In this document: piece by piece, positions 3,459-21,482 of the stretch
Layout of the letters: every line of letters starts with the position of its first letter
Numbering within the stretch: position 1 is the stretch's first letter
Source of the DNA: a virus
Virus record (IMG/VR): IMGVR_UViG_3300042565_001261
Coordinates: 1 to 30,536 of that record
DNA length: 30,536 bases
Direction: 5' to 3' (one strand)
The notes under the pieces: generated by a model
Database searches by the model: none
Seen by the model: the letters and a program-made list of their open reading frames with translations, nothing else
Told to the model about the DNA's origin: nothing
Position numbers and translations under genes: made by a program

Positions 3459-3507
3459 GACTGATGGTACAACACCTCCCTTCACCCCTTTCTTTTAGGA
3501 AACCTGT

Positions 3508-6522: not shown

Positions 6523-7614
6523 ATGGGTCTCAGACAGATTATAGGATTCCTTCACGAAGCTCAGGATCTCTCAGCTACGTGGGGAATCAACGTAATTAGG
6601 GAACAGTGCCTGATCGAGATGGATTCTCCGTTGGAGGATGTCGTCGATGTTCAGGCTGCTCTACCTGCGTACGACTTCGGTGTTACTCCCGAGCCTACAT
6701 TCACGCTGGGTCTGTCGTACCATCCAGAACGTGCTGACCTGATCCTGAAACAGGCCAATAGCGTCAGAGTCCATCAGTCAGGTAGACCATTCTGGATCGT
6801 AGACCTGACCTACGAGACTGCTCAGTTCCTTAACACGTCCAACGGCTTTAGTACCGCTCCCACCAGAGTTGAAGACGTAGGTGGTACGGGTTCTACGCCC
6901 AAGCTGATCACCGTTGCCCCTTGGAATGAACCAGTCATTTGGAACTCGTCTACACGTTCCGTACAGGCTACAAGGTTCAGAAGTTCTACAGGGGTCATGC
7001 TCCGCCACTCGAACTTCCTGCCACTGACAGAAGGGATTGATATCCCGATCAATCTCCAAGTTCATCAGTTCACATGGAACGTACAGGCAACTGGATTCAA
7101 CTTCAGTACTGACATCGCTCCGTACATCGGGAAGATCAACGATGCTCAAATAGACGATTTCTACGACGCACCGGCAAGGCACGTACTGTTGGAATCAATT
7201 ACTTGTTCAGAACAGTACAAGACAGTAAACTATGGTGTGCCAACAGGACAGGCAAGTGCAGAGACTGAGCCTTACCATTACATCGCTCTGAGTGCAACCT
7301 TCGTAATCGACGAACGTACGGCTGAAGTGTCTCCAGAAGGACACTTCCGCGAATCCAATCGTCGTGTGTCCATGCACACTCAGGAACTGATCAACGGAGG
7401 CGTAGCTAACATGGCGTACGCTCCTATCCCGATCAACGACAAAGGTGACTTTGCTCAGTCACCATGGCCGCTGAGAGATGACGGTTCTGCCTATCCGTAC
7501 GCAACTATGGACACTGCAGACCCCGACACAGACTTCTACATCATCGACCCACTGTACCCTATCGAAGCAGACTTGAGCGGTTTCGTTAACACCCATAGCT
7601 TGGCAATACCATGA
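6523..7614 (+). CDS. Tail protein downstream of tape measure (tail-tip candidate)
   Basis: 363 aa, no transmembrane segments, rich in aromatic and beta-forming residues. The first 80 residues include a segment on a conserved tail-like theme (TPEPTFTLGLSYHPE); the middle has a repeated W-N-V/S pattern (PVIWNSSTRSVQATRF and FTWNVQATGF). The gene has an AGAGG site 6 nt before ATG and follows the tape measure, where siphoviruses encode the distal tail and baseplate hub proteins. It is longer than a minimal Dit and shorter than most Tal proteins. I cannot assign a family; a distal-tail or hub role is inference from position. The stop overlaps the next start (ATGA). Confidence 0.65.
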   Translation: MGLRQIIGFLHEAQDLSATWGINVIREQCLIEMDSPLEDVVDVQAALPAYDFGVTPEPTFTLGLSYHPERADLILKQANSVRVHQSGRPFWIVDLTYETAQFLNTSNGFSTAPTRVEDVGGTGSTPKLITVAPWNEPVIWNSSTRSVQATRFRSSTGVMLRHSNFLPLTEGIDIPINLQVHQFTWNVQATGFNFSTDIAPYIGKINDAQIDDFYDAPARHVLLESITCSEQYKTVNYGVPTGQASAETEPYHYIALSATFVIDERTAEVSPEGHFRESNRRVSMHTQELINGGVANMAYAPIPINDKGDFAQSPWPLRDDGSAYPYATMDTADPDTDFYIIDPLYPIEADLSGFVNTHSLAIP

Positions 7615-8249
7615 CAGGTCCATTAGGACTCTACAACTACGACGATGCACGGGAGATCCATCGCCGTGTGCTTGGTACCCGCCAATCACAGGCAGTGATG
7701 GATAACACTCGTGACAAGACGATCCACAACCTGCTGTACTATGTTCTCCTCACAGAAGACCTTGCGGCGGCAAGTAATCCTCTCACGGGTTACACTACAG
7801 CAGTTGGTCGTATTATTCGTTACGTTCAACCCACCAGTGCCACCAGCCTTGACATGGAAGCCTCTACTTCCGCTCAAGGTCTTATCAACGTAACCAATCG
7901 GTACGAGACCTTCTCGGCGTCCGAAGGCGACCTATTGTTGATCGTTCGCAATGGTGCTGAGTGGTCACCAGTTACCAGCGGTGGTGGAAAACTTCAGGTT
8001 ATTCTCACAACAGACCTACTAGCAGCGGTTAACACTAAGCGAGACCCAAGCACAGCTACCGCCCGAATCCTTCGCAAAAAATCAAACGGCGACCTCACGC
8101 TGTCCACCGACTCAATCACGATCGTGAATCGCTTTACACAGATTAGTGTTGATGCTGGGACTTATGCGAAGGCCGAATACATTGACGGCGAATGGCAGCT
8201 ATACGCGGCCGATTGTCCGGGGGGTTCAGCATCGTCGGGGAGCGTCTAA
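7611..8249 (+). CDS. Tail-region structural protein, composition changes mid-gene
   Basis: 212 aa, soluble. An N-terminal helical part (about 1-55) is followed by beta-rich sequence. The end, with YAKAEYIDGEWQLYAADC and a Gly/Ser tail, looks like a small beta domain. It overlaps the previous gene (ATGA) and the next (TAATG). The base composition changes within this gene: GTAC tetranucleotides occur up to about 7905 and then disappear, and GC-ending codons become more frequent towards the 3' end. This could mark a recombination joint between a phage-backbone N-terminus and a swapped C-terminal domain, as often seen in receptor-binding proteins. No family is recognised. Confidence 0.6.
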   Translation: MTGPLGLYNYDDAREIHRRVLGTRQSQAVMDNTRDKTIHNLLYYVLLTEDLAAASNPLTGYTTAVGRIIRYVQPTSATSLDMEASTSAQGLINVTNRYETFSASEGDLLLIVRNGAEWSPVTSGGGKLQVILTTDLLAAVNTKRDPSTATARILRKKSNGDLTLSTDSITIVNRFTQISVDAGTYAKAEYIDGEWQLYAADCPGGSASSGSV

Positions 8250-8872
8250 TGTTGCTGGGATGCTGTCATTGTGGCGAAACGCCGAGCGAATCTCGGAGTG
8301 CATCACAAAGTGTATCTCAGAGTGCATCGCAGAGCGGATCGGCACCTGATTACACATACGGAATTTGTAATTGTGCAGCCGTGCCAAAAACATGGCAGGT
8401 TGTGTGGCCTGCAATGAACGCTAATGCTCCATGCCCGATTGCGGCGGGGACATATGATCTTGCGTATGCTGGGGTAAAAACTTTTCCGGGTGCTGCATAT
8501 GAGGGGTGCACATGGGAATCGGCTGGACTTGGACCACGCATGAGAGTTACTGGCGGTGCGTGGAATTGCCAGACGTGGACGACAGCACCCCCGGCGTTTC
8601 GTGTTTTTGTTATTCCTAGCCAGTTTATAGACCACTTGGAACTGGTAGTTAGTTATTCCGTGTGGACTGACGCCGGATTCGGTGGTAGTTATCTTGACCA
8701 TAACGTTCGATACGCAAACACATCGCCGACATCATCTCCGTGTCTTCACAATGGTGCACTGACTGTCGGAGGCAGCCCGGATACGTGGCCTAACAAAACC
8801 GATACGGTATTCCCTTTTACATTCATTAACCTTCCGGTTCCCTCAACGATTACGCTGAGGCCAAAAATATGA
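8249..8872 (+). CDS. Cys/Ser-rich tail-region protein with SASQ linker
   Basis: 207 aa from the ATG at 8249, which overlaps the preceding stop as TAATG; upstream in-frame starts lie within the previous gene and are less likely. The N-terminus MLLGCCHCGE has three cysteines in the first eight residues, followed by a hydrophilic linker made of four RSAS/QSVS/QSAS/QSGS units, then a beta-rich domain (about 40-207) rich in Trp, Tyr, Pro and Thr with spaced cysteines. It looks like a receptor-binding or fibre-tip protein: a short anchor, a flexible linker and a globular head. Being next to glycosyltransferase genes, the Ser-rich linker is a candidate glycan acceptor; that is inference. The family is unknown to me. 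Confidence 0.65.
   Translation: MLLGCCHCGETPSESRSASQSVSQSASQSGSAPDYTYGICNCAAVPKTWQVVWPAMNANAPCPIAAGTYDLAYAGVKTFPGAAYEGCTWESAGLGPRMRVTGGAWNCQTWTTAPPAFRVFVIPSQFIDHLELVVSYSVWTDAGFGGSYLDHNVRYANTSPTSSPCLHNGALTVGGSPDTWPNKTDTVFPFTFINLPVPSTITLRPKI
8294..8341 (+). repeat. Four 12-bp imperfect tandem repeats (SASQ linker)
   Basis: Units cggagtgcatca, caaagtgtatct, cagagtgcatcg and cagagcggatcg (8294-8305, 8306-8317, 8318-8329, 8330-8341) are in frame and encode RSAS, QSVS, QSAS and QSGS. They form the flexible linker of the 8249-8872 protein. Confidence 0.8.
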
Positions 8873-9963
8873 AGGATTGTCGGTTCAGGTTCTCACATCC
8901 GGACGGCCTCGCCACATGCACAAGCGACGCACTGATTTTCGGCGTGTCGATGCCTGCCGATCCAATTGATATGTGCCGCTCGTGTCCGATTCCTGATATG
9001 CTGGCACAAACTGAACGTCCAAAAGATTTTTACAAACAGACGGCAGACCTGCTCGTGCACAAGCAGCGTGCTGGCGAGTATGTTGCCAATCCTAAGTCCT
9101 GCGGCGGATGCGGCGAAACAAAGCACAGAGTACCTGAACCAGAAACCATGCAATTCGTCTGGCCGTATTGGGACGGCGGGGCACAAGCCGACGAACTTCG
9201 CTGGTCTATCAGATCAGTTGAAACCTTTTTTAAAGGTAAAGCAAAAATCACAATCATCGGTGACAAGCCGGACTGGTATCACGGGCATGTCATCATAAAA
9301 AAGAGAGTTCCCGCAACAAGGCCAAACCGAGCGTTCCGCGACATGCTTGGCAAGGTGTTCTACATCGCGACACATGCCGAGATTGACTCCGAGTGCGTCT
9401 GGATGATGGACGATATTTATTTTCTAAAGCCGTTCACCCTAGACGACATCAAGACCCCTCGTGCGGAGCCGTGGCGACCTGACGCCAGCAACAGTTGGCA
9501 GAAGCGGAAAACACTGTCGATGGAGACTCTGGCGGCTCGTGGATTAACGCAGCACGATTACGCAACGCATCTGCCGCACTGGCTGGAAAAAGACAAACTG
9601 CGGGCGATGTTCGACGACTTCAATCTGCACGAGCACACCATGTTGTGGGAGGTATTGTACGGCAATGTTTATCGAGGCACTCCGCAACGCACGCGGCCAT
9701 TCTTTGCGAGGTTCCAGCATCAAGCAGACAAAGAAACGTTCCAGCGTTTAACCGCAAACGCGACCGTGATCAACAATACTGAGTCTGCGTGGTGCGATGG
9801 TCTGCACGACTTTCTTGCCGAACGGTTGCCGACTCCTTCAAGCGTTGAGGCTGAACACGAGGCGTCGAATCCGGTTTACATCATCACGAAGAAGGGGCCA
9901 CGAACCGTAAAGCGTCGGCCACTGGAAACACACAGAGACTACGTCGAGAAGCAAGTTCAATGA
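8869..9963 (+). CDS. Stealth-like glycosyltransferase/sugar-phosphotransferase with Cys-rich N-terminus
   Basis: 364 aa. Residues 1-90 carry cysteines at 4, 17, 36, 39, 78 and 81 (CRSC, CGGC), suggesting a small metal-binding domain. From about 95 on, VWPYWDGGAQADELRWSIRS followed by ITIIGDKPDW, then RDMLGKVFYIATH and WMMDDIYFLKPF (DD at 181-182), matches the order of blocks in Stealth-type capsule sugar-phosphotransferases and related GT-A enzymes: an ELR-S-RS helix, a strand ending in GD.P.W, and an acidic DD pair for metal-sugar-nucleotide binding. The reaction is likely transfer of a sugar or sugar phosphate, substrate unknown. It overlaps both neighbours by 4 nt and belongs to the composition-distinct segment. 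Confidence 0.7.
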   Translation: MKDCRFRFSHPDGLATCTSDALIFGVSMPADPIDMCRSCPIPDMLAQTERPKDFYKQTADLLVHKQRAGEYVANPKSCGGCGETKHRVPEPETMQFVWPYWDGGAQADELRWSIRSVETFFKGKAKITIIGDKPDWYHGHVIIKKRVPATRPNRAFRDMLGKVFYIATHAEIDSECVWMMDDIYFLKPFTLDDIKTPRAEPWRPDASNSWQKRKTLSMETLAARGLTQHDYATHLPHWLEKDKLRAMFDDFNLHEHTMLWEVLYGNVYRGTPQRTRPFFARFQHQADKETFQRLTANATVINNTESAWCDGLHDFLAERLPTPSSVEAEHEASNPVYIITKKGPRTVKRRPLETHRDYVEKQVQ

Positions 9964-11366
9964 CTCCTCACATCATGATCATCCAGTCTGCCTACACTGA
10001 CCGCAGGCTATCAGAGCGACGGCTGGAGATTTCTCGCCACACTGCGATACCATCGCTCGCATACCAGACCGTCAAGCCTGTTATTCACATCGCTGTCAAT
10101 CCCGACGATCCGTTTCTGGCCGAACGACTTGAGGCATTCCGGGCAACAGGTTGCGAAGTAAAAGCACTTTACCGACCCAACTGGAAACTCTATCGCGAGA
10201 ACTGGGAGCTTCCAGAGGGGCGAAAGATCGTCAGCCGTATGGACGATGATGACGTGATCTGTAAAGAGTATTGCGAACTGACAAGGGCACAAGCTCCAGA
10301 GTCGGGCGAATGGAATCTGATCTGGCCAAACGGTTACGTCTTCTGGCGTGAGACGTGCTATCTGTTGCACCATCCGGGCATTCAGTTTGTTACGCTGGTG
10401 ACAGATCACGACAAAGATCCGCATCAGGAGCAACACTGGGGATACCATAAGCGATGGCAAACAAAGGTCGTTTCCGATGCAGTCGGCTGGATATGGGTTC
10501 GTCATGGTGACGCGGCTTCATCAACGCTGCCGAGATACCGCAAAGTTAAGCGAAGCGGCATTGATGCGAAGCGGATTCCAATCAACCTGAGAGCGATCCT
10601 AAGAGCCATTGCGGACTCTGGCACAGCGAGCGGAAACTATACGGAACACCGCAATCCGGCACTGTTGGCCCATGTGCTACAGCAAAACAAACGGCACGAA
10701 CCGGCAACACCAGCGGGGCCGCGTTTTCTGGTCGTAGTCCCAACACATCGACTGGCAGTAGCCCAGGCGACAATCGACGAACTGCAAATGTCATTCACCT
10801 ACCCGACAGAGTTTCACGTTTTGGACGGCACTCCATCGAAATGTCACGCACTAAACAAAGCTCTGGCTGAATTGCTTGATCCGGCAAAGCATGACATTTA
10901 CGTGACGATCGACGATGACATTCTTCCGGGCGAAAACTGGCAGCATTTCATCGCGTGTGCGTTCGACCGCATTCCAAAGCTGGGAGCGTGCGGAGTCGAT
11001 TACAGCGGGACTGAAGAAGGGCGGACGCTGATGGCCAACGCGATGCAAGCTCCAGTTACGCAGGTCCGAGACATCCAGTTTCGTAACGCGACGGGCTTGC
11101 AGAATCTTGCAGGCGGCTGTTTCGCAATCAGGTCCGCACTAGCCAAGGAAATTGGCCCGTATCCATTCGCGGACGATGGCAGACAATACCACGCAGACGA
11201 AGACGGCTGGAGATCGCATCAGGTCACGCGACGGGGCTGGCAAGTCGGTTACGTCACGAATCCCAATGAGCCGGTCAGGATGATTGCTCACAGAAACACA
11301 GAGCAGTATGAAGCGAAAAAGGCAATTGACATCGAGGCGTGGCAAGCAAGGCCCGTGTGGGAATAA
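9960..11366 (+). CDS. Two-domain glycosyltransferase (two GT-A units)
   Basis: 468 aa with two acidic GT-A cores. The first half (about 1-205) has VSRMDDDDVI (Asp 95-98) in a setting like the putative rhamnosyltransferase group (PF11316-like). The second half (about 253-468) begins FLVVVPTHR and has YVTIDDDILPG (Asp 318-320), NLAGGCFAIRS and HADEDGW (Glu 414, Asp 415), a normal GT2 arrangement. Tandem GT modules usually add two sugars in sequence or alternate linkages, as in polysaccharide polymerising enzymes. No membrane segment is present, so it acts in the cytoplasm, probably on a lipid-linked or protein acceptor. In its 1407 bases I find no GTAC, unlike the neighbours to the right. Confidence 0.8.
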   Translation: MTPHIMIIQSAYTDRRLSERRLEISRHTAIPSLAYQTVKPVIHIAVNPDDPFLAERLEAFRATGCEVKALYRPNWKLYRENWELPEGRKIVSRMDDDDVICKEYCELTRAQAPESGEWNLIWPNGYVFWRETCYLLHHPGIQFVTLVTDHDKDPHQEQHWGYHKRWQTKVVSDAVGWIWVRHGDAASSTLPRYRKVKRSGIDAKRIPINLRAILRAIADSGTASGNYTEHRNPALLAHVLQQNKRHEPATPAGPRFLVVVPTHRLAVAQATIDELQMSFTYPTEFHVLDGTPSKCHALNKALAELLDPAKHDIYVTIDDDILPGENWQHFIACAFDRIPKLGACGVDYSGTEEGRTLMANAMQAPVTQVRDIQFRNATGLQNLAGGCFAIRSALAKEIGPYPFADDGRQYHADEDGWRSHQVTRRGWQVGYVTNPNEPVRMIAHRNTEQYEAKKAIDIEAWQARPVWE

Positions 11367-11420
11367 AGTGACTGCTGTGACTTCCATACCGTGTATCACA
11401 TGAATGCTTGAAGTGAAAAT

Positions 11421-12374
11421 ATGCCTCATATCGTTCTGCCCAAGGAAACACTGTGCGGTTGTATCCACGACTCGCAGGTAGTTGCGTTTCGAGACTACAT
11501 TACACCCATCGTACCGGGAGTCAGATTCGTGACTCCGCTTCCGTCCTTCACCAGCCATCGCCGTGTACTTGATACTCAAGGTCACGCTGAACTTCTTCGC
11601 TCAGAAGTTATGAAGTGGAACGGTGGGCTGGAACGACCAGCAGAAGACCTGCCTTACATCCGTGGTACTTGGGAGTACGCAGTCACTACTGTACCGACTC
11701 GCGTAGATGATCTGCTTCCCAGAACGCTGGAGAGCCTCGCTGACGCTGGCTTCGACAAACCCATCATCTCAGTCGACGGACCCTGCGATAGTCGCTTGAT
11801 GGACGTGCTGGAGCCTCACGAGGTGATCTGCCGTGGAAAGAACATCCGAACCTTCGCTCACTGGCACATGACACTCCTTGAACTCTACTCCAGAAACCCA
11901 TGGTCCCAGTTCTACGCAATCTTTCAGGACGACTTCATCTGCGTCAAGAACCTCAAGCAGTACCTGACTGAGTGTACACTACCAGAGAAAAGTTACCTCA
12001 ACCTCTTTACATTCATGGAAAACGATGCTATCGTTCCCGGGAAGACACATGGTTGGCACGAAGCTGCTCGTGCTGCAAAAGGTCACCAACTCGGTAGAGG
12101 TGCCGTAGCATTGGTGTTTGATCACGCAGCAGTTGAGACGTTACTTGCACAACCGCACATGGTTACTCGTCGTAGAGATTCTATGCGAGGGCACAAGTCA
12201 TTGGACGGTGCAATCGTTGAATCCATGAATGCTGCTGGATGGACTGAGTATGTCCACTACCCTTCACTGGTACAGCACATTGGCGAAGAGTCATCCATGG
12301 GTAACAAGAAGCACCCAATCAGTAAGTGTTACATCGAAGAGTTTGACCCCCTAAGTCTCTTACCCCCCAAGTGA
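11421..12374 (+). CDS. GT-A glycosyltransferase with QDDF motif
   Basis: 317 aa. Residues 1-80 have no recognised fold. From 84 on, WEYAVTTVPTRVDDLLPRTL starts a Rossmann-like nucleotide-binding half; YAIFQDDFICVKNL (Asp 170-171) supplies the metal-binding DxD-type site; GRGAVALVFDHAAVETLL and SLDGAIVESMNAAGW with YPSLVQHIGEESSMGN complete the acceptor half. This block order is one I associate with uncharacterised glycosyltransferases in planctomycete and phage genomes; the donor sugar is unknown. An in-frame Met at 64 is a possible alternative start. GTAC reappears in this gene, so it lies beyond the foreign-looking segment. It is separated from the previous gene by 54 nt with no clear promoter. 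Confidence 0.75.
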   Translation: MPHIVLPKETLCGCIHDSQVVAFRDYITPIVPGVRFVTPLPSFTSHRRVLDTQGHAELLRSEVMKWNGGLERPAEDLPYIRGTWEYAVTTVPTRVDDLLPRTLESLADAGFDKPIISVDGPCDSRLMDVLEPHEVICRGKNIRTFAHWHMTLLELYSRNPWSQFYAIFQDDFICVKNLKQYLTECTLPEKSYLNLFTFMENDAIVPGKTHGWHEAARAAKGHQLGRGAVALVFDHAAVETLLAQPHMVTRRRDSMRGHKSLDGAIVESMNAAGWTEYVHYPSLVQHIGEESSMGNKKHPISKCYIEEFDPLSLLPPK

Positions 12375-12378
12375 GAAC

Positions 12379-13611
12379 ATGTCCTACACCACCCGCACGA
12401 CGTGCCGCATCTGCGGTCACGATCAACTCACGCCTTTGTATAACTTTGGCGATCAATACATCAGCAACTTTGTAGACCCCGGACACGCCTACGATGGTGA
12501 GAAATGTCCGCTTGAGTTAGTCTACTGCTATGAATGTACTCTGGTCCAGAACCCGCACACAGCACCACAAGAGTTGCTGTACTCCGGCCACTATTGGTAC
12601 CGCTCTGGTGTTACAGCCACGATGCGTACAGCCTTGGCCGATGTTGTGCGAGATGCAATGTCTCAAGTAGAGTTACACACGGGGGACGTAGTACTCGACA
12701 TTGGCTCCAACGACGGCACACTACTTGGCTTCTATCCTGACGAACTGATTCGCGTTGGTGTAGAACCCGCTAAGAATCTTGCCTCAGAGCCACAAGAGAA
12801 AGTAGACATCCTGATCAACGATTTCTGGTCAGCCGATGCCTACACGAATGCCGTTACAGGCAAAGCCAAAATCATTACTGCTTGCGGTATGTTCTACGAT
12901 CTTGAAGATCCTAATCAGTTCATTGCAGATATCGCTGCTGTGCTTCACCCAAAAGGTGTGTTCGTAGCTCAGTTGATGTGCCTCAAGAACATGATCAACT
13001 GCAATGACATCGGCAACATGGCTCACGAGCATCTGGAGTTCTACACGCTCCACAGCCTTGCTGTGCTACTTGAGCGTCATGGCCTAATGATCTACGATAT
13101 CTCCACCAATGCTGTTAACGGGCAATCTTACCGCCTGATCATCGCAAACGCTATGTTGCTCACTGGTCGCACTCCAGAAGCAGCAAAGCGTGTCGTTGAT
13201 GCGTTCATTGCCGAAGAAAACATACTCAAGGACTTCGATGACTTCATTACACGCATGGAGGCCAACCGAGACGAAGTTCAGGACATCATCAACGAAGCCA
13301 ACGAAGACGGCAAGATGGTCTGTGTGTACGGAGCATCAACCAAAGGTAACTTCCTTCTTCAGTGGTACGGGATAGACTACGACGATGTGCTGTACGCTGC
13401 TGAACGCTCACCCGAGAAGTGGGGTAAAGTCACAGCCGGTACTGATATCAAAATCTACTCCGAAGCAATCGTACGTCAACAGCGACCAGACTACATGTTG
13501 GTCCTGCCCTATGCTTTCATCTCAGAATTCCTTGAACGGGAAAAGGATGAAGCATGGCGTAAAGCTGGTGGCAAGTTCATCGTCCCCCTCCCTGAACTAA
13601 GGATTCTCTAA
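12379..13611 (+). CDS. NDP-sugar C-methyltransferase (TylCIII/NovU-like)
   Basis: 410 aa with the three-part layout of sugar C-methyltransferases. An N-terminal zinc site is made by C9-x2-C12 and C50-x2-C53. The SAM domain has VVLDIGSNDGTLL (about 104-116) and the family hallmark AHEHLEFYTLHSL (216-228), whose His/Glu/Tyr set carries out deprotonation next to the keto group. The C-terminal domain has VYGASTKGNFLLQ. Known members add a methyl to a carbon beside the 4-keto group of NDP-deoxysugars, making branched sugars such as mycarose. Here the likely substrate is an NDP-4-keto-6-deoxyhexose made by neighbouring enzymes, a substrate inference. The stop overlaps the next ATG by one base. Confidence 0.85.
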   Translation: MSYTTRTTCRICGHDQLTPLYNFGDQYISNFVDPGHAYDGEKCPLELVYCYECTLVQNPHTAPQELLYSGHYWYRSGVTATMRTALADVVRDAMSQVELHTGDVVLDIGSNDGTLLGFYPDELIRVGVEPAKNLASEPQEKVDILINDFWSADAYTNAVTGKAKIITACGMFYDLEDPNQFIADIAAVLHPKGVFVAQLMCLKNMINCNDIGNMAHEHLEFYTLHSLAVLLERHGLMIYDISTNAVNGQSYRLIIANAMLLTGRTPEAAKRVVDAFIAEENILKDFDDFITRMEANRDEVQDIINEANEDGKMVCVYGASTKGNFLLQWYGIDYDDVLYAAERSPEKWGKVTAGTDIKIYSEAIVRQQRPDYMLVLPYAFISEFLEREKDEAWRKAGGKFIVPLPELRIL

Positions 13612-14546
13612 TGCGTGCTCTCATAACTGGATGTTGCGGCCAGGACGGTTCTTATCTTGCTGACATCCTGCTGGAGAAAGGCTACGAAGTCTACGGCGTC
13701 TATCGGCATTCGTCTAAAGATCCGTTTGACAACGTACGCCACAACATCGGCAACCCTAACTTCCACCTGATCCAAGGTGATGTTACGGATGCTCTGTGTC
13801 TGGACGAGATCATTCGTAAGGTAGATCCTCACCAGATTTACCATGAAGCTGATCAGGACAACGTAGACTGGTCCTTCCTGCACCCAGCGTATCAGGTAGA
13901 CGTTACGGTTAAAGCTGTCAGCAATCTGCTGGCATCTGTACGCCGTCATTGCCCATCTGCTCGTGTATTCATTCCATGTTCATCAACGATGTTCGGTGAC
14001 GCACCAGCCCCACAGACCGAAGAGACTCCGTTCAACCCACGTAGTCCTTACGCCTGTGCCAAGGTCGCTGCCTATCACCTTGCCAGAATGTACCGACAGA
14101 ACCATGGGATGTTCGTCTGCACTGGAATCCTTTACAACCACGACTCACCAAGGCGTAATGGTAACTACCTGTTGCATAAGATATGTAAGGCTGCTGCGAC
14201 TGGCGTACCTGTAGCAATGTTCGATGTGGGACAGGACGTGACGATCGGTTACGCCAAGGATTACATGGAACACGTCTACGACCTGATGCAGTTGAGCACA
14301 CCCAATGATTACGTCGTCTGTAATGCGTACACGACATCCGTTCGCCAGTTAATACGCAATGCTTGTTTCCTTGTCAACGTAGCACCCGATACCTGCTTTA
14401 CTGCCACAGAATCTACTATGCCGTACAGAAGTGCTACGGTCTACGGTAGCTCACGTCGGTTGTTCGATGCCATCGGCCCTAAAGCCAAGCTATGTATCGT
14501 CAGCCTGCTGGAAATGCTGATTAAGAAATATAGGAGCAACTCATGA
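13611..14546 (+). CDS. GDP-mannose 4,6-dehydratase-like SDR enzyme with altered active site
   Basis: 311 aa, shorter than typical Gmd (about 345-370). Clear Gmd-family marks: ITGCCGQDGSYLADILLEKG (NAD(P)-binding, 5-24), the FNPRSPYACAK segment with Tyr147 and Lys151, and GILYNHDSPRRNG. In true Gmd enzymes the active-site block reads STSE(L/M)(F/Y)G, where Glu acts in the dehydration. Here the equal-length block is CSSTMFG (123-129), so the Glu position is Thr126. The protein may therefore be an epimerase or a reductase, or a dehydratase with another general base. It would still handle a GDP-hexose by family logic. It overlaps neighbours on both sides, fitting one operon with the aminotransferase at 17743. 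Confidence 0.75.
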   Translation: MRALITGCCGQDGSYLADILLEKGYEVYGVYRHSSKDPFDNVRHNIGNPNFHLIQGDVTDALCLDEIIRKVDPHQIYHEADQDNVDWSFLHPAYQVDVTVKAVSNLLASVRRHCPSARVFIPCSSTMFGDAPAPQTEETPFNPRSPYACAKVAAYHLARMYRQNHGMFVCTGILYNHDSPRRNGNYLLHKICKAAATGVPVAMFDVGQDVTIGYAKDYMEHVYDLMQLSTPNDYVVCNAYTTSVRQLIRNACFLVNVAPDTCFTATESTMPYRSATVYGSSRRLFDAIGPKAKLCIVSLLEMLIKKYRSNS

Positions 14547-15562
14547 GAGTAGGATGTGTATGCTACGCGACTTCACAGGGGTTAGGTCATCTAGCCAAGT
14601 CCTTCTACGATGCTGGCGTTATCACCGACGTTATGGTCTATCGTCACCCTCATGGTACTCCTTCACACATGGAGTGGTACCCAGAAGGAACTATGGAGAT
14701 CACCAGCAGAACCATTGCTGGACCTGACGTAGAACGGTTCCTAGACGACATCGACGTGATGCTGTTCTTCGAAACTCCATTCGATTGGAACTTTCCTAAC
14801 CGCTGTCATGAGCGTGGAGTCAAGACCGTTATCATTCCGATGTACGAATGGTTTCTCGAACATCCACGGCACAAGTTCGATCTGTTCATCAATCCTTCGT
14901 TACTGGACCAGCAGTACTTCCCTGATGGTATCCATATTCCTATTCCTGTCGAGCCTCATATCCAGTGGACTCGCAGGACCAAGGCACGTAGGTTCCTACA
15001 CAATGCTGGCAACATTGGTTCTCGAAACCACAAGGGCACGCTCGAACTGATCAGAGCATTAGGGTACGTTCAGTCGGACATCGACCTGACTATTCGTTGT
15101 CAGAAACCTGAAGGGATCTACAAGCTGCTAAAGGAAGCTGACCTGCCCAAGACTGCAGTAGTCCCAACAATTATTGCTGGTGAAGTCCCTCGGCACCAAC
15201 TATTCGATCCTGTGTACGATGTCTATGTCGCACCAGAAAAGTACAATGGGCTTAGCCTTCCACTGCAGGAAGCATTTGCTTCAGGCATGATGGTGATGAC
15301 AACCAACAGGTTCCCCACCAACCAGTGGTTACCGGAAGAACCTCTGATCCCTGTTGCCTCACGACGCATCACTCAGGTTATGTCAGGTCATCTGAAGATT
15401 GAGGAGTCAGTAGTCGATCCTGTCGCTATTGCTGCCTGCATTGACCAGTGGGCAGATCAGGACATTGAGAAGTTCTCATTGGAAGGTGAGAACTACCGTA
15501 CTACCAACTCATGGGAAATGCTGAAGCACCGTTACATCGAAGCACTGGAGTCTGTACTATGA
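14543..15562 (+). CDS. GT-B (GT4-like) glycosyltransferase
   Basis: 339 aa. The N-terminal Rossmann half begins VGCVCYATSQGLGHLAKSFY (Gly-rich loop for acceptor binding) and includes FFETPFDWNFP and VKTVIIPMYEW. The C-terminal half has HNAGNIGSRNHKGTLELIRA (a G..G..KG..~.I.A pattern) and NGLSLPLQEAFASGMMVMTT (about 233-252), the nucleotide-sugar site typical of GT4 enzymes, though the usual first Glu of the E-x7-E pair is not evident. Such enzymes transfer sugars with retention from NDP donors. It has no membrane span. The start ATG overlaps the previous stop (ATGA) and its stop overlaps the next start, so it is coupled in the sugar operon. Confidence 0.8.
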   Translation: MRVGCVCYATSQGLGHLAKSFYDAGVITDVMVYRHPHGTPSHMEWYPEGTMEITSRTIAGPDVERFLDDIDVMLFFETPFDWNFPNRCHERGVKTVIIPMYEWFLEHPRHKFDLFINPSLLDQQYFPDGIHIPIPVEPHIQWTRRTKARRFLHNAGNIGSRNHKGTLELIRALGYVQSDIDLTIRCQKPEGIYKLLKEADLPKTAVVPTIIAGEVPRHQLFDPVYDVYVAPEKYNGLSLPLQEAFASGMMVMTTNRFPTNQWLPEEPLIPVASRRITQVMSGHLKIEESVVDPVAIAACIDQWADQDIEKFSLEGENYRTTNSWEMLKHRYIEALESVL

Positions 15563-16500
15563 AACTCGCACTCTGTACTCTGGTGCTCAACGAAATGGAA
15601 TGGCTTCCTAAACTCTATGAGCAGCACAAGAACTGGCCGGGAGTAGAGAAGTGGATATTCGTAGAATCTGCTGATCGTATCTACGCAGAAACCAATCCTG
15701 ACATGGTCTCACCAGAAGGTCTGAGCGTCGACGGCACCACAGAGTTCCTGTCAGAACTTGCTCTGGCTGATTCTCGTGTTACTCACATCAAGCACGGATT
15801 CTGCTCAGCCAAGGATAAGGCTCAGGGCAAGTGCGAAGCTCGTGATCAGTACTTGCGAGCAATAACCGACATGGACTTCCATCCAAACTACTTCATCGTA
15901 CTGGATGCTGATGAGTTCTACCCATTCGAGTGTCAGACAGATATCAACTACCTGCTGCCGAAGACACTAGGTAACGGCTTTGCTTTTCGGCATCGAGAGA
16001 TATGGTATCCACAGTACCTGCAGGATCGACAGGCACCAATGTTCGATTTCGAAGTCTCTGGAGGCTTCTGGGATATTCCTTACTGTCGTGTATGGCGATG
16101 GTACCGAGGGTTGCACTACGGTAACCACAACACACCGTTCATCGGTAAGACTTCTCTGGACCTGCGTCTAAATCGTATGACACAGGACGGACTACCGTAC
16201 ATGGTCCACATGGGCTTTGCGTCACAGCTAAAGACCAGAGCAGCCAAGAACCGTTACTATGAAGCTCGTGGAGAAGCAGTGGATCGTAAGCGGTCATGGT
16301 ACTGCGAGAGCCGTCAATGCTTCGAGACATGGGAGCCAAAGATGGACTTACCACGAGGAGCTAAAGTTAGCTTCTACACAGGACTTATCCCGGAGTGTTT
16401 TGATGCCACTGCGAGTTACAACTCAGGAATTCTGGAGGACACGAATATGGGAAGTAGTCGCCAGTGGATTGGAATTACACCAGATCATCTTCAGAACTGA
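15559..16500 (+). CDS. GT2/GT92-like glycosyltransferase
   Basis: 313 aa from the ATG at 15559, which overlaps the preceding TGA (ATGA); an upstream in-frame ATG at 15511 lies deep inside the previous gene and is unlikely. The protein starts LALCTLVLNEMEWLP, a classic GT-A opening with a NE.EWL acceptor-side motif, and has YFIVLDADEFYPF (DAD at 116-118), the metal-binding DxD. The centre has WYPQYLQDRQAPMFDF and several Trp residues. These features point to a GT2 or GT92-type inverting transferase. The next gene begins inside its 3' end in another frame, overlapping by nearly 100 bases. Confidence 0.75.
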   Translation: MKLALCTLVLNEMEWLPKLYEQHKNWPGVEKWIFVESADRIYAETNPDMVSPEGLSVDGTTEFLSELALADSRVTHIKHGFCSAKDKAQGKCEARDQYLRAITDMDFHPNYFIVLDADEFYPFECQTDINYLLPKTLGNGFAFRHREIWYPQYLQDRQAPMFDFEVSGGFWDIPYCRVWRWYRGLHYGNHNTPFIGKTSLDLRLNRMTQDGLPYMVHMGFASQLKTRAAKNRYYEARGEAVDRKRSWYCESRQCFETWEPKMDLPRGAKVSFYTGLIPECFDATASYNSGILEDTNMGSSRQWIGITPDHLQN

Positions 16501-16948
16501 CATACGCAACTGGAACAATATCCAGCAACACACAGCCAAACTACTACGCGATATCTTACCTGCGTCGTGCCGACTGCTAGACGCTGGCTGTGGTTATGGG
16601 GCACTGTACGAAATACTTCACGCAGTACCACACTTCGCTGGAGTTCAGTACACAGGACTTGATCTCTCAGAAGATTTAATCGGCATCGCAAAGTTGCGTT
16701 ACCCAAACGCTGTCTTCAAGCAGTGCCGACTGGAAGACGCAGACTACCCTGCAGACCATTTTGACTATACTGTGTTCCGGTCAGTGGAGGGAATGCTTCA
16801 CGACAACGGTCACAGCACATCATGGACTATCGCATTCGACAACGTCAGGCGAATGTCTAAGAACATAATCCTTATCGAGTATGGAGCAGTAAACAAACCC
16901 ACCATCCTTACCAAAAACAGCAACGGTGAATGGAATGCTAGATCCTGA
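16403..16948 (+). CDS. Class I SAM-dependent methyltransferase
   Basis: 181 aa if the ATG at 16403 is used; it has GGAG 16392-16395 about 7 nt upstream. A still longer in-frame start at 16259 lies far within the previous gene. The SAM motif LLDAGCGYGALYEIL (58-72), YTGLDLSEDLIGIA (83-96, acidic Asp87 for the ribose) and the LEDADYPADHFDYTVF stretch place it with class I methyltransferases of the Methyltransf_25/11 type. In a sugar cassette it likely O- or N-methylates a sugar or the terminal residue, capping chain growth. The 98-base overlap with the preceding gene is unusual and makes the exact start uncertain. Confidence 0.75.
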   Translation: MPLRVTTQEFWRTRIWEVVASGLELHQIIFRTDIRNWNNIQQHTAKLLRDILPASCRLLDAGCGYGALYEILHAVPHFAGVQYTGLDLSEDLIGIAKLRYPNAVFKQCRLEDADYPADHFDYTVFRSVEGMLHDNGHSTSWTIAFDNVRRMSKNIILIEYGAVNKPTILTKNSNGEWNARS

Positions 16949-17297
16949 CGAACATGTAGTTCCGTACAGCACACTCCACGTCATCGAAGACTACAGAGGC
17001 TATCTTGTATGGCGTTACAGTACAGGCAACACCGTAGAGCTTCTGCACCTCGATACATTGGAACGACGTAAAGGTTACGGATCATCTCTGATCTATGACA
17101 TGCTGCTCGCTGTTGACCGAGAGAAAGCCTGTGTCATATACGGATTCACAAGAGCCAACAAGATCGAAGCTCAAGTGTTCTACGCAGCACTAGGCTTCAA
17201 ACTGAAGTTACTCCCAGACCTGTACTACCCACAGGATGGAGTACTGTTTACTCAAACTCACCATACCCTGATGGAGAAGTTTCATGCTCGTCGATAA
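16935..17297 (+). CDS. GNAT-family N-acetyltransferase
   Basis: 120 aa from ATG 16935 (a GTG at 16926 is an alternative); it overlaps the methyltransferase end by 14 nt. The acetyl-CoA binding signature is clear: LDTLERRKGYGSSLIYDML, with R44-x-x-G47-x-G49, and the closing motif NKIEAQVFYAALGFK (75-89). GNAT enzymes pass an acetyl group from acetyl-CoA to an amine. Next to a sugar aminotransferase the natural guess is N-acetylation of the amino sugar, as in 4-acetamido-4,6-dideoxyhexoses; this is inference, since GNATs also modify proteins and antibiotics. Its short size means little more than the catalytic fold. Confidence 0.8.
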   Translation: MLDPDEHVVPYSTLHVIEDYRGYLVWRYSTGNTVELLHLDTLERRKGYGSSLIYDMLLAVDREKACVIYGFTRANKIEAQVFYAALGFKLKLLPDLYYPQDGVLFTQTHHTLMEKFHARR

Positions 17298-17733
17298 CAT
17301 CTACGTACCCAACTCACTGACACTACTGGCAACTCACCTCCACAGTCTCTACACCGGCAACGAGAAGGTGAAGACTGAGTTTGTCACAGACGATGCCCAG
17401 TCCATTCAGGTTGGCGTGTTACATCGTCAGGCTGGCACAGTCGTCCAAGCTCATCAACATCTTCCTGTTCAGAAACAAGTGACGGGGACACAGGAAGTAC
17501 TGATTGTCCGTTCAGGTCACATCGTGGTAGATATCTTTGACACAAATGGTAATTTTGTAGCAGCAAAGCCTTTACGCACCGGAGATATTTACATACAGTA
17601 CTCTGGTGGTCACGCATTTCACTTCATCACTGATGTCCAGTTTGTTGAGATCAAACAAGGACCGTACACGCCTGCTGACAAAGTTTACTTCAATCCTGAC
17701 TTCAATCCATGTGCTCATGAACAAATGAAATAG
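17284..17733 (+). CDS. Cupin-fold protein (WbuC-like end motif)
   Basis: 149 aa with a single cupin barrel. The metal site is readable: QAHQHLP gives H57 and H59, TQEVLIVRSG gives E71, and GGHAFHF gives H110. The C-terminal VEIKQGPYTPADK resembles the E-K-x-GPY-x-P ending of WbuC proteins from O-antigen clusters. Cupins in sugar clusters act as isomerases, epimerases or binding proteins; the strong signature of FdtA-type 3,4-ketoisomerases is not seen. The ATG at 17284 has GGAG at 17273-17276, 7 nt upstream, and overlaps the GNAT gene by 14 nt, so it belongs to the same operon. The precise reaction is unknown. Confidence 0.7.
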   Translation: MLVDNIYVPNSLTLLATHLHSLYTGNEKVKTEFVTDDAQSIQVGVLHRQAGTVVQAHQHLPVQKQVTGTQEVLIVRSGHIVVDIFDTNGNFVAAKPLRTGDIYIQYSGGHAFHFITDVQFVEIKQGPYTPADKVYFNPDFNPCAHEQMK

Positions 17734-17742
17734 GAGACAGCA

Positions 17743-18750
17743 ATGCAAGCCTTCGAGCAACTTGAACTTGAATTTGGACAGTTCATCGGAAACCCCAATA
17801 CTGTCGCCGTAGCCAGTGGTACAGCAGCTTTGCACATTGCTTGTGAAGTTGCTCGCACGTACATAACCGATGACGTAACTGGCGAAGTGAAACCCAGTAT
17901 TGCCATTCCAGAATACACGATGGTGGCTTGTGCTCGTGCTGCTGCGATGGCTGATCTGGATATTCACTTTGTAGACTGCAATGACAACCTGCAGATGAAC
18001 ATGGACTTGATTCCGGATCAAATGCACATCGTCATGCCAGTTCACATCTACGGCAACCTGTGTGACGTTGCTACGATACACCGTAAACCGTACAAGCCAT
18101 TGGTCATCGAAGACATGGCTGAAGTTCATGGTGCAAAACCTCATCCAAACTCATTCGCAGCCTGCTGGTCGTTCTACAAGAACAAGACGATCCATGGCGA
18201 AGAAGGCGGCATGATTGCTTTCAAGAATGCTCACGACGCACGACTGGCTAAGCGGTTGCGTACTCTTGGCTTTGATGACAATCACGATTACTTTCACGTT
18301 CCTCGTGGAGTCAATGCTCGTATGAGCAACGCTCACGCTGAACTCATACTTCCTTCACTCAGAAACTATTCAACCAGCTACTTCAATAAGTTGTACCGTT
18401 CTACTGATTACGATTGTTGCGTACCTCTGGAATGGTTGATGCCGCTGTGTCTCTATCCGTGGATCTACCCACTTCGCATTGAAGGAATGAATCGCTTTCA
18501 GCAACGAGAACTCGTACTGAGGCTGAATGAGAAAGGTATCGCTGCTCGTCAAGGTTTTAAGTCGATGAAACTGCAAGCGGAATTCGACAACGGAACTGCC
18601 GACTGCATTACCAACGCAATGAGACTTCAGCACGAGATCATCTATCTTCCTCTCTCAGAAACAATGACCCGCGATGATGTAACTCGAATCTGTGACGAAC
18701 TCATGAATGTTGCAAAAATTGTTATTCCACTGTTGACACCAACCGTCTAA
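17743..18750 (+). CDS. DegT/DnrJ/EryC1-family sugar aminotransferase (perosamine synthase-like)
   Basis: 335 aa PLP enzyme of the sugar aminotransferase family. Motifs in order: VAVASGTAALHIA (21-33), VIEDMAEVHGA (121-131; Asp124 and the AE-H set hold the PLP pyridine), WSFYKNKTIHGEEGGM (142-157) with the Schiff-base Lys148, and GVNARMSNAHAELIL (189-203). The family converts a keto group of an NDP-4-keto-6-deoxysugar to an amine, using glutamate. Perosamine synthase (GDP-4-keto-6-deoxymannose to GDP-perosamine) is the natural fit given the Gmd-like neighbour, but other 4-amino sugars are possible. AGGAG lies 6 nt before ATG. It is the last gene of the sugar cassette. Confidence 0.87.
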   Translation: MQAFEQLELEFGQFIGNPNTVAVASGTAALHIACEVARTYITDDVTGEVKPSIAIPEYTMVACARAAAMADLDIHFVDCNDNLQMNMDLIPDQMHIVMPVHIYGNLCDVATIHRKPYKPLVIEDMAEVHGAKPHPNSFAACWSFYKNKTIHGEEGGMIAFKNAHDARLAKRLRTLGFDDNHDYFHVPRGVNARMSNAHAELILPSLRNYSTSYFNKLYRSTDYDCCVPLEWLMPLCLYPWIYPLRIEGMNRFQQRELVLRLNEKGIAARQGFKSMKLQAEFDNGTADCITNAMRLQHEIIYLPLSETMTRDDVTRICDELMNVAKIVIPLLTPTV

Positions 18751-18760
18751 CGGCTAAACT
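18733..18760 (+). promoter_or_regulatory. Candidate sigma70-like promoter before the replication genes
   Basis: TTGACA (18733-18738) is a perfect -35 box and TAAACT (18755-18760) a 4/6 match to TATAAT, with a 16-bp spacer. It overlaps the end of the aminotransferase gene and would start RNA near 18767, about 35 nt before the ParB-like gene. Position at the border of the late sugar genes and replication genes makes it plausible. Confidence 0.45.
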
Positions 18761-18801
18761 TCACCCGAACAGTTCATAACCCTCATTAAGAAAGTACCCC
18801 T

Positions 18802-20049
18802 ATGAAACTCGAAACTCTGTTTTCCAAAGCTGAAAAGACTCTGACTCCGATCAAGACCAAAGTGCTGTGCATTACACCCGCATTTGCTCATGCCTGCTTG
18901 AAGGATCTGAACAACAGCAACCGTCCGATGTCCCGCAGTGTTGCCAACCTCTACGCCAACGAAATGCTTCGTGGTCAGTGGAAGTGCAACGGCGAGCCTA
19001 TCATCTTCTCAGTTGATGCTGACGGCAACGAGCACCTGATCTCAGGTCAGCATCGTCTGCAGGGTCTGGTACTCGCTCAGCAAGCTATTGAGAAGGGCGA
19101 AGTATGGCTCTCTGCTCAAACTGAGTGGGACGCAGTCATCATTTACGGTGTTCCTCACGACACTGCCGACACTGTAGATACGGGTAAGACTCGTACCCAC
19201 AGCGATGTCCTGTTCCGTGATCCTTGGGTAGACTCTGTCATTCCAGAAGCATGGAACGCTACAGTCAGCAAGCGTAAGACTTGGACCAAGACTCTGGCTG
19301 GTGCTGCACGTCTGGTATGGCTGATCGAAGGTGGTGCTACAGTCTCGTCAGCACCTAAGTTCCTCATCTCAGAAATGATGTCGTTCATTCAGACTCGTCA
19401 TGCTGGACTTGCCAACTTCGTTACAATGGTGCTGGACGCCAACGATGCTGACGGTGGCAACAAAGGACTGAAGATGAGCTTGGCTTATCTGGCTGCTCTG
19501 ACGTACGTTGCTTGCGTCGAGGAGCATGATTGCTTTGATGACGATGGCAACACTGTCGTCGAAGTTTCCATCGCTGACGACACACAGGACGCTATGGACA
19601 TCTTCCTGAACCAACTGGCTGTCGGATCAGGTTACGACAAAGGTGACCCAGCATGGGCACTTGCAGGTTACTGGAACAAGCTGACAGCAGAGAAGGGCAG
19701 CAAGGACCGCGATCGTGACTGGGTAGGTCCATTCGTTAAGGCTGCTAAGGCAGTCCTCGAAGGTCGTACTGGTCTGAAGGTCTCCGACATCTCCCTGAAT
19801 AAGAAAGAGCGTGATGGTTATACTGACTTCCCTGTTATGTTTGACGGTTACCATACTCTCTGTTTCGAACGTGCTGCTGCTGCGAAAGCTGCGTCAAGCC
19901 AACCAGTGGAAACCAGTGTATCTTCGGTCAGCGAAGAACTCGATTCCACTGAACCCGATGGAGAGTCAGCTAGTGAAGAGATGGTTACAGAGCCAACAAG
20001 ACGACCAAGACCAAAACGTAAAGCTAAGCCAGCAACAGTCTCAGCTTAG
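18802..20049 (+). CDS. ParB/Srx-like domain protein
   Basis: 415 aa. Residues about 23-115 contain NNSNRPMSRSVANLYANEML then GQWKCNGEPIIF and LISGQHRLQGLV (80-91, GQHR at 82-85), the arrangement of the ParB/sulfiredoxin-like domain common in phages, where the G-x-HR box forms the nucleotide site (CTPase or ATP-binding in relatives). The body is helical. The tail has an acidic Ser/Glu stretch (about 375-397) then a basic patch RRPRPKRKAK, likely binding nucleic acid. Its role may be in DNA binding, transcription switching or replication; unknown. It is the first gene of the replication module, behind a candidate promoter, so it is probably expressed early. Confidence 0.75.
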   Translation: MKLETLFSKAEKTLTPIKTKVLCITPAFAHACLKDLNNSNRPMSRSVANLYANEMLRGQWKCNGEPIIFSVDADGNEHLISGQHRLQGLVLAQQAIEKGEVWLSAQTEWDAVIIYGVPHDTADTVDTGKTRTHSDVLFRDPWVDSVIPEAWNATVSKRKTWTKTLAGAARLVWLIEGGATVSSAPKFLISEMMSFIQTRHAGLANFVTMVLDANDADGGNKGLKMSLAYLAALTYVACVEEHDCFDDDGNTVVEVSIADDTQDAMDIFLNQLAVGSGYDKGDPAWALAGYWNKLTAEKGSKDRDRDWVGPFVKAAKAVLEGRTGLKVSDISLNKKERDGYTDFPVMFDGYHTLCFERAAAAKAASSQPVETSVSSVSEELDSTEPDGESASEEMVTEPTRRPRPKRKAKPATVSA

Positions 20050-20103
20050 TTGATCTTCCCGGCAGTCCTGCAATGATGAAGTTTCTGTGTCGCAGGTTGA
20101 CGG

Positions 20104-20128
20104 CCTTACTGTAGCCAATGCAGTAGGG
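20104..20128 (+). terminator. Weak hairpin in the 20050-20206 intergenic region
   Basis: CCTTACTG (20104-20111) pairs with CAGTAGGG (20121-20128) with one G-U pair and a 9-nt loop. It is followed by ggcattttg with only four T, so it would be at best a weak terminator or attenuator of read-through from the ParB-like gene. Confidence 0.35.
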
Positions 20129-20160
20129 GCATTTTGCTCGCAGGTAACGCTAACAGAAAT

Positions 20161-20172
20161 GTCGTTAACGAC
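20161..20172. promoter_or_regulatory. 12-bp perfect palindrome, possible operator
   Basis: GTCGTTAACGAC is a perfect two-fold symmetric sequence, located 35 bases before the start at 20207 and inside the only sizeable gene-free stretch of the replication module. Such sites often bind dimeric regulators, but no repressor gene is seen in the window. Confidence 0.35.
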
Positions 20173-20206
20173 GTATTCCTGCTCCTATTACTTTAAGGAT
20201 GATGTT

Positions 20207-20578
20207 ATGGCTAAAGCCCTTTGGAAAAACTTCGAAAGATACGTTGCTGCCATCTTCGGTACAGAACGTACTGCACTTTCAGGAGGAAACGGTAAGGTAA
20301 CTAGGTCAGACTCTCATCATCCGTTGTTATTCTTGAGTTGCAAATACTCACAGGCAAATAATAAAGGACTACGTGACCTGTTAACCGAAGAAAGAGATAA
20401 GGCAAAAGTTGAAAACAAGACAGCAGTATGCGTCATCGGTGAAGCTGGCGATCGTGCTAATTCGTTAGTCGTATTCGCATTGAAGGATATACACAAAGTA
20501 GTTGAGGCATTAAATGCACACCCCCTGTCGAATGATCTGGTCCCCAGCAGTCAACGGCCTAAGCCTGTCAGCACTTGA
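20207..20578 (+). CDS. PD-(D/E)XK nuclease-fold protein (Holliday-junction resolvase-like)
   Basis: 123 aa. The ATG at 20207 is chosen over an upstream 20087 start because AAGGA (20195-20199) lies 7 nt before it and the region upstream is hairpin-rich. The layout WKNFERYVAAIFGTER (E10), SGGNGKVTRSDSHHP (D35) and LFLSCKYSQ (K46) matches the E...D...(E)xK active site of small PD-(D/E)XK enzymes, close to phage Holliday-junction resolvase-like nucleases, with the middle ExK residue changed to SCK. It continues with alternating strands and a helix. It probably resolves branched DNA. The first part of the next gene overlaps its end by 65 bases in another frame. Confidence 0.65.
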   Translation: MAKALWKNFERYVAAIFGTERTALSGGNGKVTRSDSHHPLLFLSCKYSQANNKGLRDLLTEERDKAKVENKTAVCVIGEAGDRANSLVVFALKDIHKVVEALNAHPLSNDLVPSSQRPKPVST

Positions 20579-21482
20579 GATGTGGCTGGTAGACCGAGTA
20601 GCCTTTGAAGTCTCTTATCTCAGAGACCTTGAAGCGGTAGAACCTTGGAACAAGAACATGAACTACGGTAGCCTGATCCAAGCAGGCATTGAGGGATACA
20701 TCAAGACCCGTCAACCTCGTGGTGCTGCTAAGTTCATTCAAACTGAATTTGAGAAGCAGACTGCAAAGTACGACGATCACGATGAAATTAGTTGGTGGGC
20801 TGGTCTTGCCCAACATCAGGTTACGACATGGATCTCACTGTATGGTGCTGACTTGGATCTGTTCCACGTAGACAAGTCAGAATGCCAGCACAAGATCCAA
20901 CTCACGTTACCTTCAGGTCGATCACTCCTGCTCAATGGGTTTATCGACGGTGAAGGTGACGCAGTCATCATGGAAAACAAATGCCGTGGAGAATGGAGTG
21001 AAGATGACATTGCTCGCGAAATTGATCGTAATCTTCAAGTCAACATGTATCAACTTCTCTACAAGGCTTCGTACGGTTATCTTCCAGAAAGGATCTGGTA
21101 CCAGCACATCAGGCGTCCCGGTGGCTTCGGCTACAGGGGACCGAGACAGAAGTCCAAGGAAACACGAGAAGAGTTCAGGTTGCGACTTGCAGAAGCAATT
21201 GACACGGATCGTGATTACCACTTCTTCAGATATTGGATCAGACCTGACGAAGAACGATACGAAAGATTCATGCACGGGTGCCTGTACCCGATGCTCGAAG
21301 CGTTCCTAGACTGGTACACCTACATGACACACCCTAACCGAAAGGATGAGATCAACCGCTTTCATTGGGCAACACCTTACGGACTCTACAACCCCTTTAT
21401 GGAAGGTACTCAGGAACGCTTCCGCAACTTCCGTCTTACTGGATCAACCCTCGGCCTTAGACCAAAAGTATCATACCGATGA
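20514..21482 (+). CDS. RecB/Cas4-like PD-(D/E)XK exonuclease
   Basis: 322 aa from ATG 20514 (GAGG at 20504-20507, 6 nt before); ATG 20532 is an alternative. The N-terminal LSLSALEMWLVDRVAFEVSY is the usual opening helix of RecB-family nucleases. The active site is NGFIDGEGDAVIMENKCRGEW, with D145, E154 and K156, and the NLQVNMYQLLYKA segment (about 172-184) is the Q-x3-Y helix of this family. These enzymes degrade or trim DNA ends, often together with a recombinase. Being next to the Sak4-like ATPase and a ssDNA-binding protein, it likely prepares ends for recombination-based repair or replication. The stop overlaps the next start (ATGA). Confidence 0.8.
   Translation: MHTPCRMIWSPAVNGLSLSALEMWLVDRVAFEVSYLRDLEAVEPWNKNMNYGSLIQAGIEGYIKTRQPRGAAKFIQTEFEKQTAKYDDHDEISWWAGLAQHQVTTWISLYGADLDLFHVDKSECQHKIQLTLPSGRSLLLNGFIDGEGDAVIMENKCRGEWSEDDIAREIDRNLQVNMYQLLYKASYGYLPERIWYQHIRRPGGFGYRGPRQKSKETREEFRLRLAEAIDTDRDYHFFRYWIRPDEERYERFMHGCLYPMLEAFLDWYTYMTHPNRKDEINRFHWATPYGLYNPFMEGTQERFRNFRLTGSTLGLRPKVSYR

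Follow-up and report, generated by a model that had tools for sequence, protein, structure and literature searches.

Glycosylation of phage virions is known from few cases, and a genetic link between acceptor and enzymes is usually missing. In mycobacteriophages, glycans have been found on capsid and tail-tube C-termini (Freeman et al. 2023, cited in PMC12619734). Judged by that citation, the locus analysed here resembles the mycobacteriophage system in that phage-encoded transferases would modify structural proteins. It differs in the presumed acceptor, which is not a capsid or tail tube protein but a Ser-rich, hypervariable tail protein that travels with the enzymes. Reference phages contained no relatives of g11, g14 or g15 (Table 1), and matches to g13 were weak; a weak tblastn match of g13 was found in Mycobacterium phage Boilgate (E 1e-5).

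The analysed stretch of DNA, here called the window, is a linear IMG/VR virus record of 30,536 bases. Head-tail connectors (PHROG matches) and tail genes lie to the left of the sugar island, while a PD-(D/E)XK nuclease, an AAA protein, DNA polymerase A and a Toprim/primase protein are encoded to the right. Since a near relative (G003, 45.5 kb) encodes a large terminase, a portal and an HK97-type capsid protein upstream, the window represents an uncultured tailed phage, siphovirus-like by gene order. Terminase homologues were detected in 17 of 294 Planctomycetota and 3 of 289 Verrucomicrobiota genomes. No other phage gene matched on these short loci, and with no second gene matching this was too weak to name a host.

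Between positions 8869 and 18750 we found 11 consecutive plus-strand ORFs whose overlaps or gaps never exceed 54 nt, which bears out the run of adjoining genes described in the initial annotation. Their proteins are mostly 84-99% identical in close relatives, at the same site between tail and replication genes, and the position is kept in relatives down to 58% polymerase identity. Thus, this is not a chance run of ORFs. No hydrophobic segment was detected in any protein from g11 to g23, and no flippase, polymerase or membrane glycosyltransferase was found in the island. Promoter and terminator scans performed no better than shuffles.

Table 1. Predicted genes of the tail-proximal region and sugar island in the window.
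Gene	Coordinates	Strand	Predicted product	Family match
g11	7611..8249	+	tail protein, two tandem beta domains (internal repeat)	
g12	8249..8872	+	tail protein, presumed acceptor	
g13	8869..9963	+	divergent Stealth-type transferase, variable Cys-rich N-terminus	
g14	9960..11366	+	two glycosyltransferase domains: Rhamno_transf-like N half, GT2 C half	
g15	11421..12374	+	probable glycosyltransferase, invariant QDDF motif	none
g16	12379..13611	+	sugar C-methyltransferase, TylCIII/TcaB9 type	
g17	13611..14546	+	Gmd-derived SDR without catalytic Glu	
g18	14543..15562	+	GT4-like glycosyltransferase, lineage-conserved	PF13692 2.7e-4, below cut-off
g19	15511..16500	+	GT2-like glycosyltransferase	PF13704 0.0016, below cut-off
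g20	16397..16948	+	class I SAM methyltransferase (decoration)	PF13489 4e-10
g21	16926..17297	+	GNAT acyltransferase (decoration)	PF13508 3.5e-5
g22	17284..17733	+	WbuC-like cupin	
g23	17743..18750	+	DegT/DnrJ/EryC1/StrS aminotransferase, short N-terminus	

What had been described as one island consists of two units. Unit A (7.98-11.37 kb), a portable module, comprises the C-terminal domain of g11 (about 7985-8246), g12, g13 and g14, while unit B (11.42-18.75 kb, g15-g23) is lineage-specific. Scanning viral contigs yielded 37 loci for g13 and 33 for g14, so these two genes are common there and not rare, as had been supposed. The second domain of g11 was located upstream of g13, 0.8-1.1 kb before it, in all 38 loci with enough sequence, and g14 followed g13 in 31 of 31. 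The flanking genes were mostly unshared (g10 in 5 of 38 loci, g15 in 2 of 24). Because the co-occurrence holds while the flanks are mostly unshared, g13 and g14 are linked to the tail protein. At the DNA level, the upstream flanks form 12 groups including the window, that is, 11 other backbones, though such groups may still be related at the protein level. Complete contigs, for example G012 and G013, have other tail genes and lack the amino-sugar genes. Acquisition of the eleven genes together as one operon is ruled out by this distribution, and the functional unit begins upstream of the proposed boundary, in g11/g12.

The exchange is visible within the lineage itself. Close relatives (G003, G002, G004) lack g12-g14; their g11 is long and contains TGTGTG tracts, their g12-like proteins are different Cys-rich ones, and their g15 is longer. 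The more distant G008, in contrast, has the block. There, g13 (77%) and the C half of g14 (89%) resemble the window, and the second half of g11 is also common to both, but the flanks are far less alike (g10 52%, g15 54%). We therefore conclude that a block has been exchanged that begins midway through g11 and extends through g14. Outside the block, the unannotated g33 (window 28245-29114) has homologues of 26-28% identity in the otherwise unrelated module-A phages G012, G013 and G015.

The internal repeat of g11 (E=4e-7) was modelled as two beta domains (pLDDT 68), the first of which is common to lineage relatives and the second to unrelated phages. Foldseek searches with g11 gave SSB/OB-like matches with a TM of about 0.25, which are not interpretable. 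Long TGTGTGTG (Thr-Gly) tracts occur in the g11 homologues of G003, G002, G004, L025, L027, L044, G005 and G009; in relatives without module A these are possibly another low-complexity glycan acceptor.

The g12 protein, whose start is likely at 8249 (TAATG with the g11 stop) and not at 8192, consists of a conserved MLLGCCHCGETP N-terminus, a Ser/Pro-rich linker (SESRSASQSVSQSASQSGS) and a hypervariable C-terminus. Nearly all homologues share this layout of a conserved start (MLLGCCHCGETP in most), a Ser-rich linker and an outer domain that is unrelated; in this comparison, the parsing of one locus (L176) was unreliable. In nearly all of them, the linker after MLLGCCHCG measures 24-60 residues and contains 20-38% Ser, versus 6-13% in the rest of the protein. 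Among loci whose g13 is at least 80% identical, the outer domains of g12 have a median identity of 23%, compared to 100% for the first 12 residues. Since start and linker are kept while the outer domains are unrelated, the enzymes follow the attachment and stalk part, and the tip is exchanged.

Six glycosyltransferase domains had been counted in the island, a number that is borne out only in part. Two of them are in g14, which matches PF13641 (second half) above and PF11316 below the cut-off; g18 and g19 remain below the cut-offs, g15 matches nothing, and g13 is Stealth-type instead of a classical glycosyltransferase. In G028, the halves of g14 are two separate genes, and in G008 (L208) the N half is split or frameshifted.

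A profile of g13 aligned with 11 bacterial Stealth proteins (hhalign) over residues 108-335 (prob 94.4, E 8.8e-8), and four control profile comparisons gave at most 1.3. Stealth_CR2 was the only recurring Pfam family (4 of 14 members, best single-sequence E 0.009), and the sole sequence matches in the PDB were GNPTAB constructs, at a weak E of 0.22. Structural prediction, proposed earlier as a check on the enzymes, led to the same family, as the top Foldseek PDB matches of the AlphaFold model were GNPTAB (3.6e-5) and CpsY (1.4e-3); at a pLDDT of 47, these matches only support the profile result. Comparison with published Stealth motifs (PMC10668966) revealed that g13, like GNPTAB, CpsY and capsule hexose-1-phosphate transferases, keeps the CR2 core with the metal-binding Asp182 (invariant in 14 of 14) and Asp158 at the Glu/Asp position, together with a CR3-like H-x-P helix and the C-terminal layout. 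Unlike in Stealth proteins, CR1 is degenerate (IDVVYTF to QFVWPYW), the CR2 Asn is Met, and the C[LI]ND of CR4 is replaced by (V/I)(I/F)N(N/H), for example VINN. The CR3 Arg (R419 of CpsY) has no unambiguous equivalent in the profile alignment. By sequence, g13 is thus Stealth-like and not, as first annotated, an ordinary glycosyltransferase, and is predicted to be a probable sugar-1-phosphate or sugar transferase. A search of 10 cellular genomes, run without a positive control, did not find g13.

In unit B, g15-g18, g22 and g23 are genes of the lineage (g18 96% and g23 84% in G003), and the decorating genes g19-g21 vary between strains. g15 has lost an N-terminal domain of about 128 aa found in the TG-type relatives. 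The C-methyltransferase, class I methyltransferase and DegT assignments of the initial annotation hold above Pfam cut-offs. g16 has the Methyltransf_13 plus Methyltransf_14 architecture (PF08421; PF08484 6e-31) and matches 4rv9 (E 5e-47) and 4e2w in the PDB. Its full-length match, zinc-binding domain and invariant Glu-His active-site pair are as in TylCIII/TcaB9, but, unlike in those systems, no 2-deoxygenation genes are found alongside it. In g23 (PF01041 1e-36), the PLP lysine K148 (NK148) is invariant. The GNAT and cupin assignments matched as well, both just under the cut-off (g21 24.5 versus 27 bits; g22 39.7 versus 42 bits for WbuC, TIGR04366). The predicted metal ligands of g22 (H57, H59, E71 and H110) are invariant, and a PDB search with this cupin gave no match.

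Gmd and DegT enzymes together had been taken to indicate GDP-perosamine. Indeed, among solved structures g23 is nearest to a perosamine synthase (best match 3bn1), but the SDR lacks the dehydratase Glu, and the unit also includes a C-methyltransferase and a cupin. Although g17 matches the GDP_Man_Dehyd family above the cut-off (PF16363 3e-68), it scores 209.9 bits against Gmd (TIGR01472), about half of the curated cut-off of 415. The T/S-x-E position reads S-S-T in g17 and S-S/A-T in all seven phage orthologues, so that Thr takes the place of the catalytic Glu. Y147/K151 (YxxxK) and the GxxGxxG glycine motif are kept, and the substrate loop is rewritten (LAAQSHV to EADQDNV, in YHEADQDNVDW). 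Of 80 cellular SDR homologues, 75 have the Glu, while the other five have Asn and the same loop as the phage. In a tree, the phage SDR and these five split from all Gmds with a branch support of 100/100. Catalytic residue, curated cut-off and tree rule out g17 as a plain Gmd, and the perosamine assignment does not follow. It could conceivably be that the new acidic loop restores dehydration. Since the route would be without its own dehydratase, the input is likely, judging from the genes, a host NDP-4-keto-6-deoxyhexose.

The Asn-type SDRs come from unrelated prokaryotic loci (Omnitrophota, a deltaproteobacterium, Diapherotrites, Bacteroidota and Peribacteria), and only these five of the 80 loci have an adjoining C-methyltransferase (50-53%), cupin and DegT; the gene order of L066 is that of the phage. 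We infer that the core of unit B is one bacterial-type pathway common to the phage and five cellular loci. By inspection, L064 contains an additional ordinary-looking Gmd at 3777-4832, which fits the reading of the cassette as lacking its own dehydratase. In three cellular loci (L064:9526-9969, L065:9520-9966, L067:8867-9298), the C-methyltransferase and the SDR are separated by a Nudix gene that by eye resembles GDP-mannose mannosyl hydrolase, a hint at a GDP-linked sugar. A C-methylated, aminated and acylated product, as proposed initially, is probable. Kansosamine- and cereose-type sugars, which we take to have the groups predicted here (C-methyl, acylated amino, O-methyl, 6-deoxy), provide a lead only.

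With moderate confidence, we interpret the locus as a composite virion-glycosylation locus, in which both units would modify tail proteins in the cytosol. g12 would be a tail-tip protein anchored by g11 and by its own conserved N-terminus, and would carry an exchangeable outer domain on a Ser/Pro-rich stalk. On this stalk, g13 and g14 would build a glycan from host nucleotide sugars, and unit B would make and add a further sugar. In the latter, g16 would C-methylate the host NDP-4-keto-6-deoxyhexose, the non-dehydratase SDR g17 with the cupin g22 would alter it, g23 would aminate and g21 N-acylate it, and g20 might O-methylate it before g15, g18 and g19 transfer the finished sugar. We infer the order of reactions, donor, acceptor and benefit, which may lie in protecting or tuning the adsorption apparatus. 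The lack of hydrophobic segments, flippase and membrane glycosyltransferase fits a cytosolic virion-protein target, unlike gtr-type seroconversion, since neither membrane glycosyltransferase nor flippase genes occur in g11-g23. Sugar-modifying enzymes do adjoin tail genes, as annotated initially, and of the targets then considered, linkage favours the phage's own tail protein. The disrupted g14 of G008, the low confidence of the g13 model and the lack of g16-g23 in G009, a member of the same family, weigh against tail glycosylation. In addition, the Ser-rich repeats may just be a flexible stalk, and glycosyltransferases encoded next to tail genes might have host glycans as substrates, in which case host range would drive the exchange.

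The latter argument belongs to the main rival reading, which we consider rather unlikely, namely that LPS, O-antigen or capsule is altered in infection and superinfection or re-adsorption is thereby blocked. If the outer domain of g12 were the matching receptor binder, the linkage of enzymes and tail would be explained. Bacterial relatives of the cassette reside in surface-polysaccharide-type clusters (by inspection, that of L067 adjoins an ABC exporter pair), WbuC cupins take their name from an O-antigen gene, and g19-g21 differ between strains like serotype genes. However, membrane glycosyltransferase, flippase, polymerase and hydrophobic segments are all missing, and the enzymes remain linked to the Ser-rich protein even where g12 has acquired a different outer domain. 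The transferase pair thus follows the stalk and not receptor specificity. Cytosolic fit and linkage together lead us to favour tail glycosylation over modification of the host surface.

Since the amino-sugar genes go with the backbone and not with module A, the acceptor of unit B may differ. Module A would then glycosylate the tail, and island B would act on a different target, either a glycan of the host or a further virion protein. In line with such a split, B is retained in the lineage regardless of tail form, and A travels without B. However, B immediately follows the tail genes in every relative, and both units are present in the window and in G008; we consider the split improbable. DNA hypermodification with the sugar is very improbable: phage glycosyltransferases can glycosylate modified bases, according to literature cited in PMC12619734, but the glycosyltransferases here are co-inherited with tail genes. 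Reading or scanning of ORFs of G003 revealed only ThyX and a dATP/dGTP hydrolase, and among the ORFs so covered there was no recognisable base hydroxymethylase or comparable partner. These two genes (L048:2147-2968 and 1183-1893) lie at the left end of that genome, on the opposite strand. Least probable of all are decaying or cargo bacterial genes without function, as the broken g14 of G008 and the altered g19 stop of the window might suggest, given that protein identity is high and active-site residues are conserved in the relatives.

Within tail glycosylation, g13 might join a sugar via a phosphodiester directly to stalk serines of g12, with g14 extending it (protein phosphoglycosylation), which we regard as unlikely. 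If true, acceptor, outer domain and transferases would form a self-contained, horizontally traded system, of a type that to our knowledge has not been described for virions. As far as we could check, a mobile module that couples the presumed acceptor to its transferases, one of them Stealth-like, represents a new variant. It points to an exchange among phages of complete kits for glycosylating the host-facing part of the tail. Found on 12 DNA-level backbones, the four-part unit names its own candidate acceptor, which makes it testable by co-expression without a cultured phage, and would offer a portable protein-glycosylation tool. In addition, the locus would provide a Gmd-like SDR that lacks the dehydratase Glu.

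Several changes were observed within unit B. g19 (297 aa in relatives) runs 32 codons longer in the window (16370-16520), where the usual stop is lost, and overlaps g20 by about 100 nt; by comparison of sequences, g20 probably starts near 16397, where relatives begin. G009, of the same family (about 60% polymerase identity), lacks g16-g23. On its reverse strand (18249-22097), other genes replace the sugar genes, by eye including radical-SAM-like, PAPS-reductase-like and glycosyltransferase-like proteins. HNH (homing-type) endonuclease genes interrupt the island at different points in two relatives (L049:6952-7455, that is G003 26952-27455, and G001 reverse-strand 3272-3820), and it is possible that they drive its shuffling.
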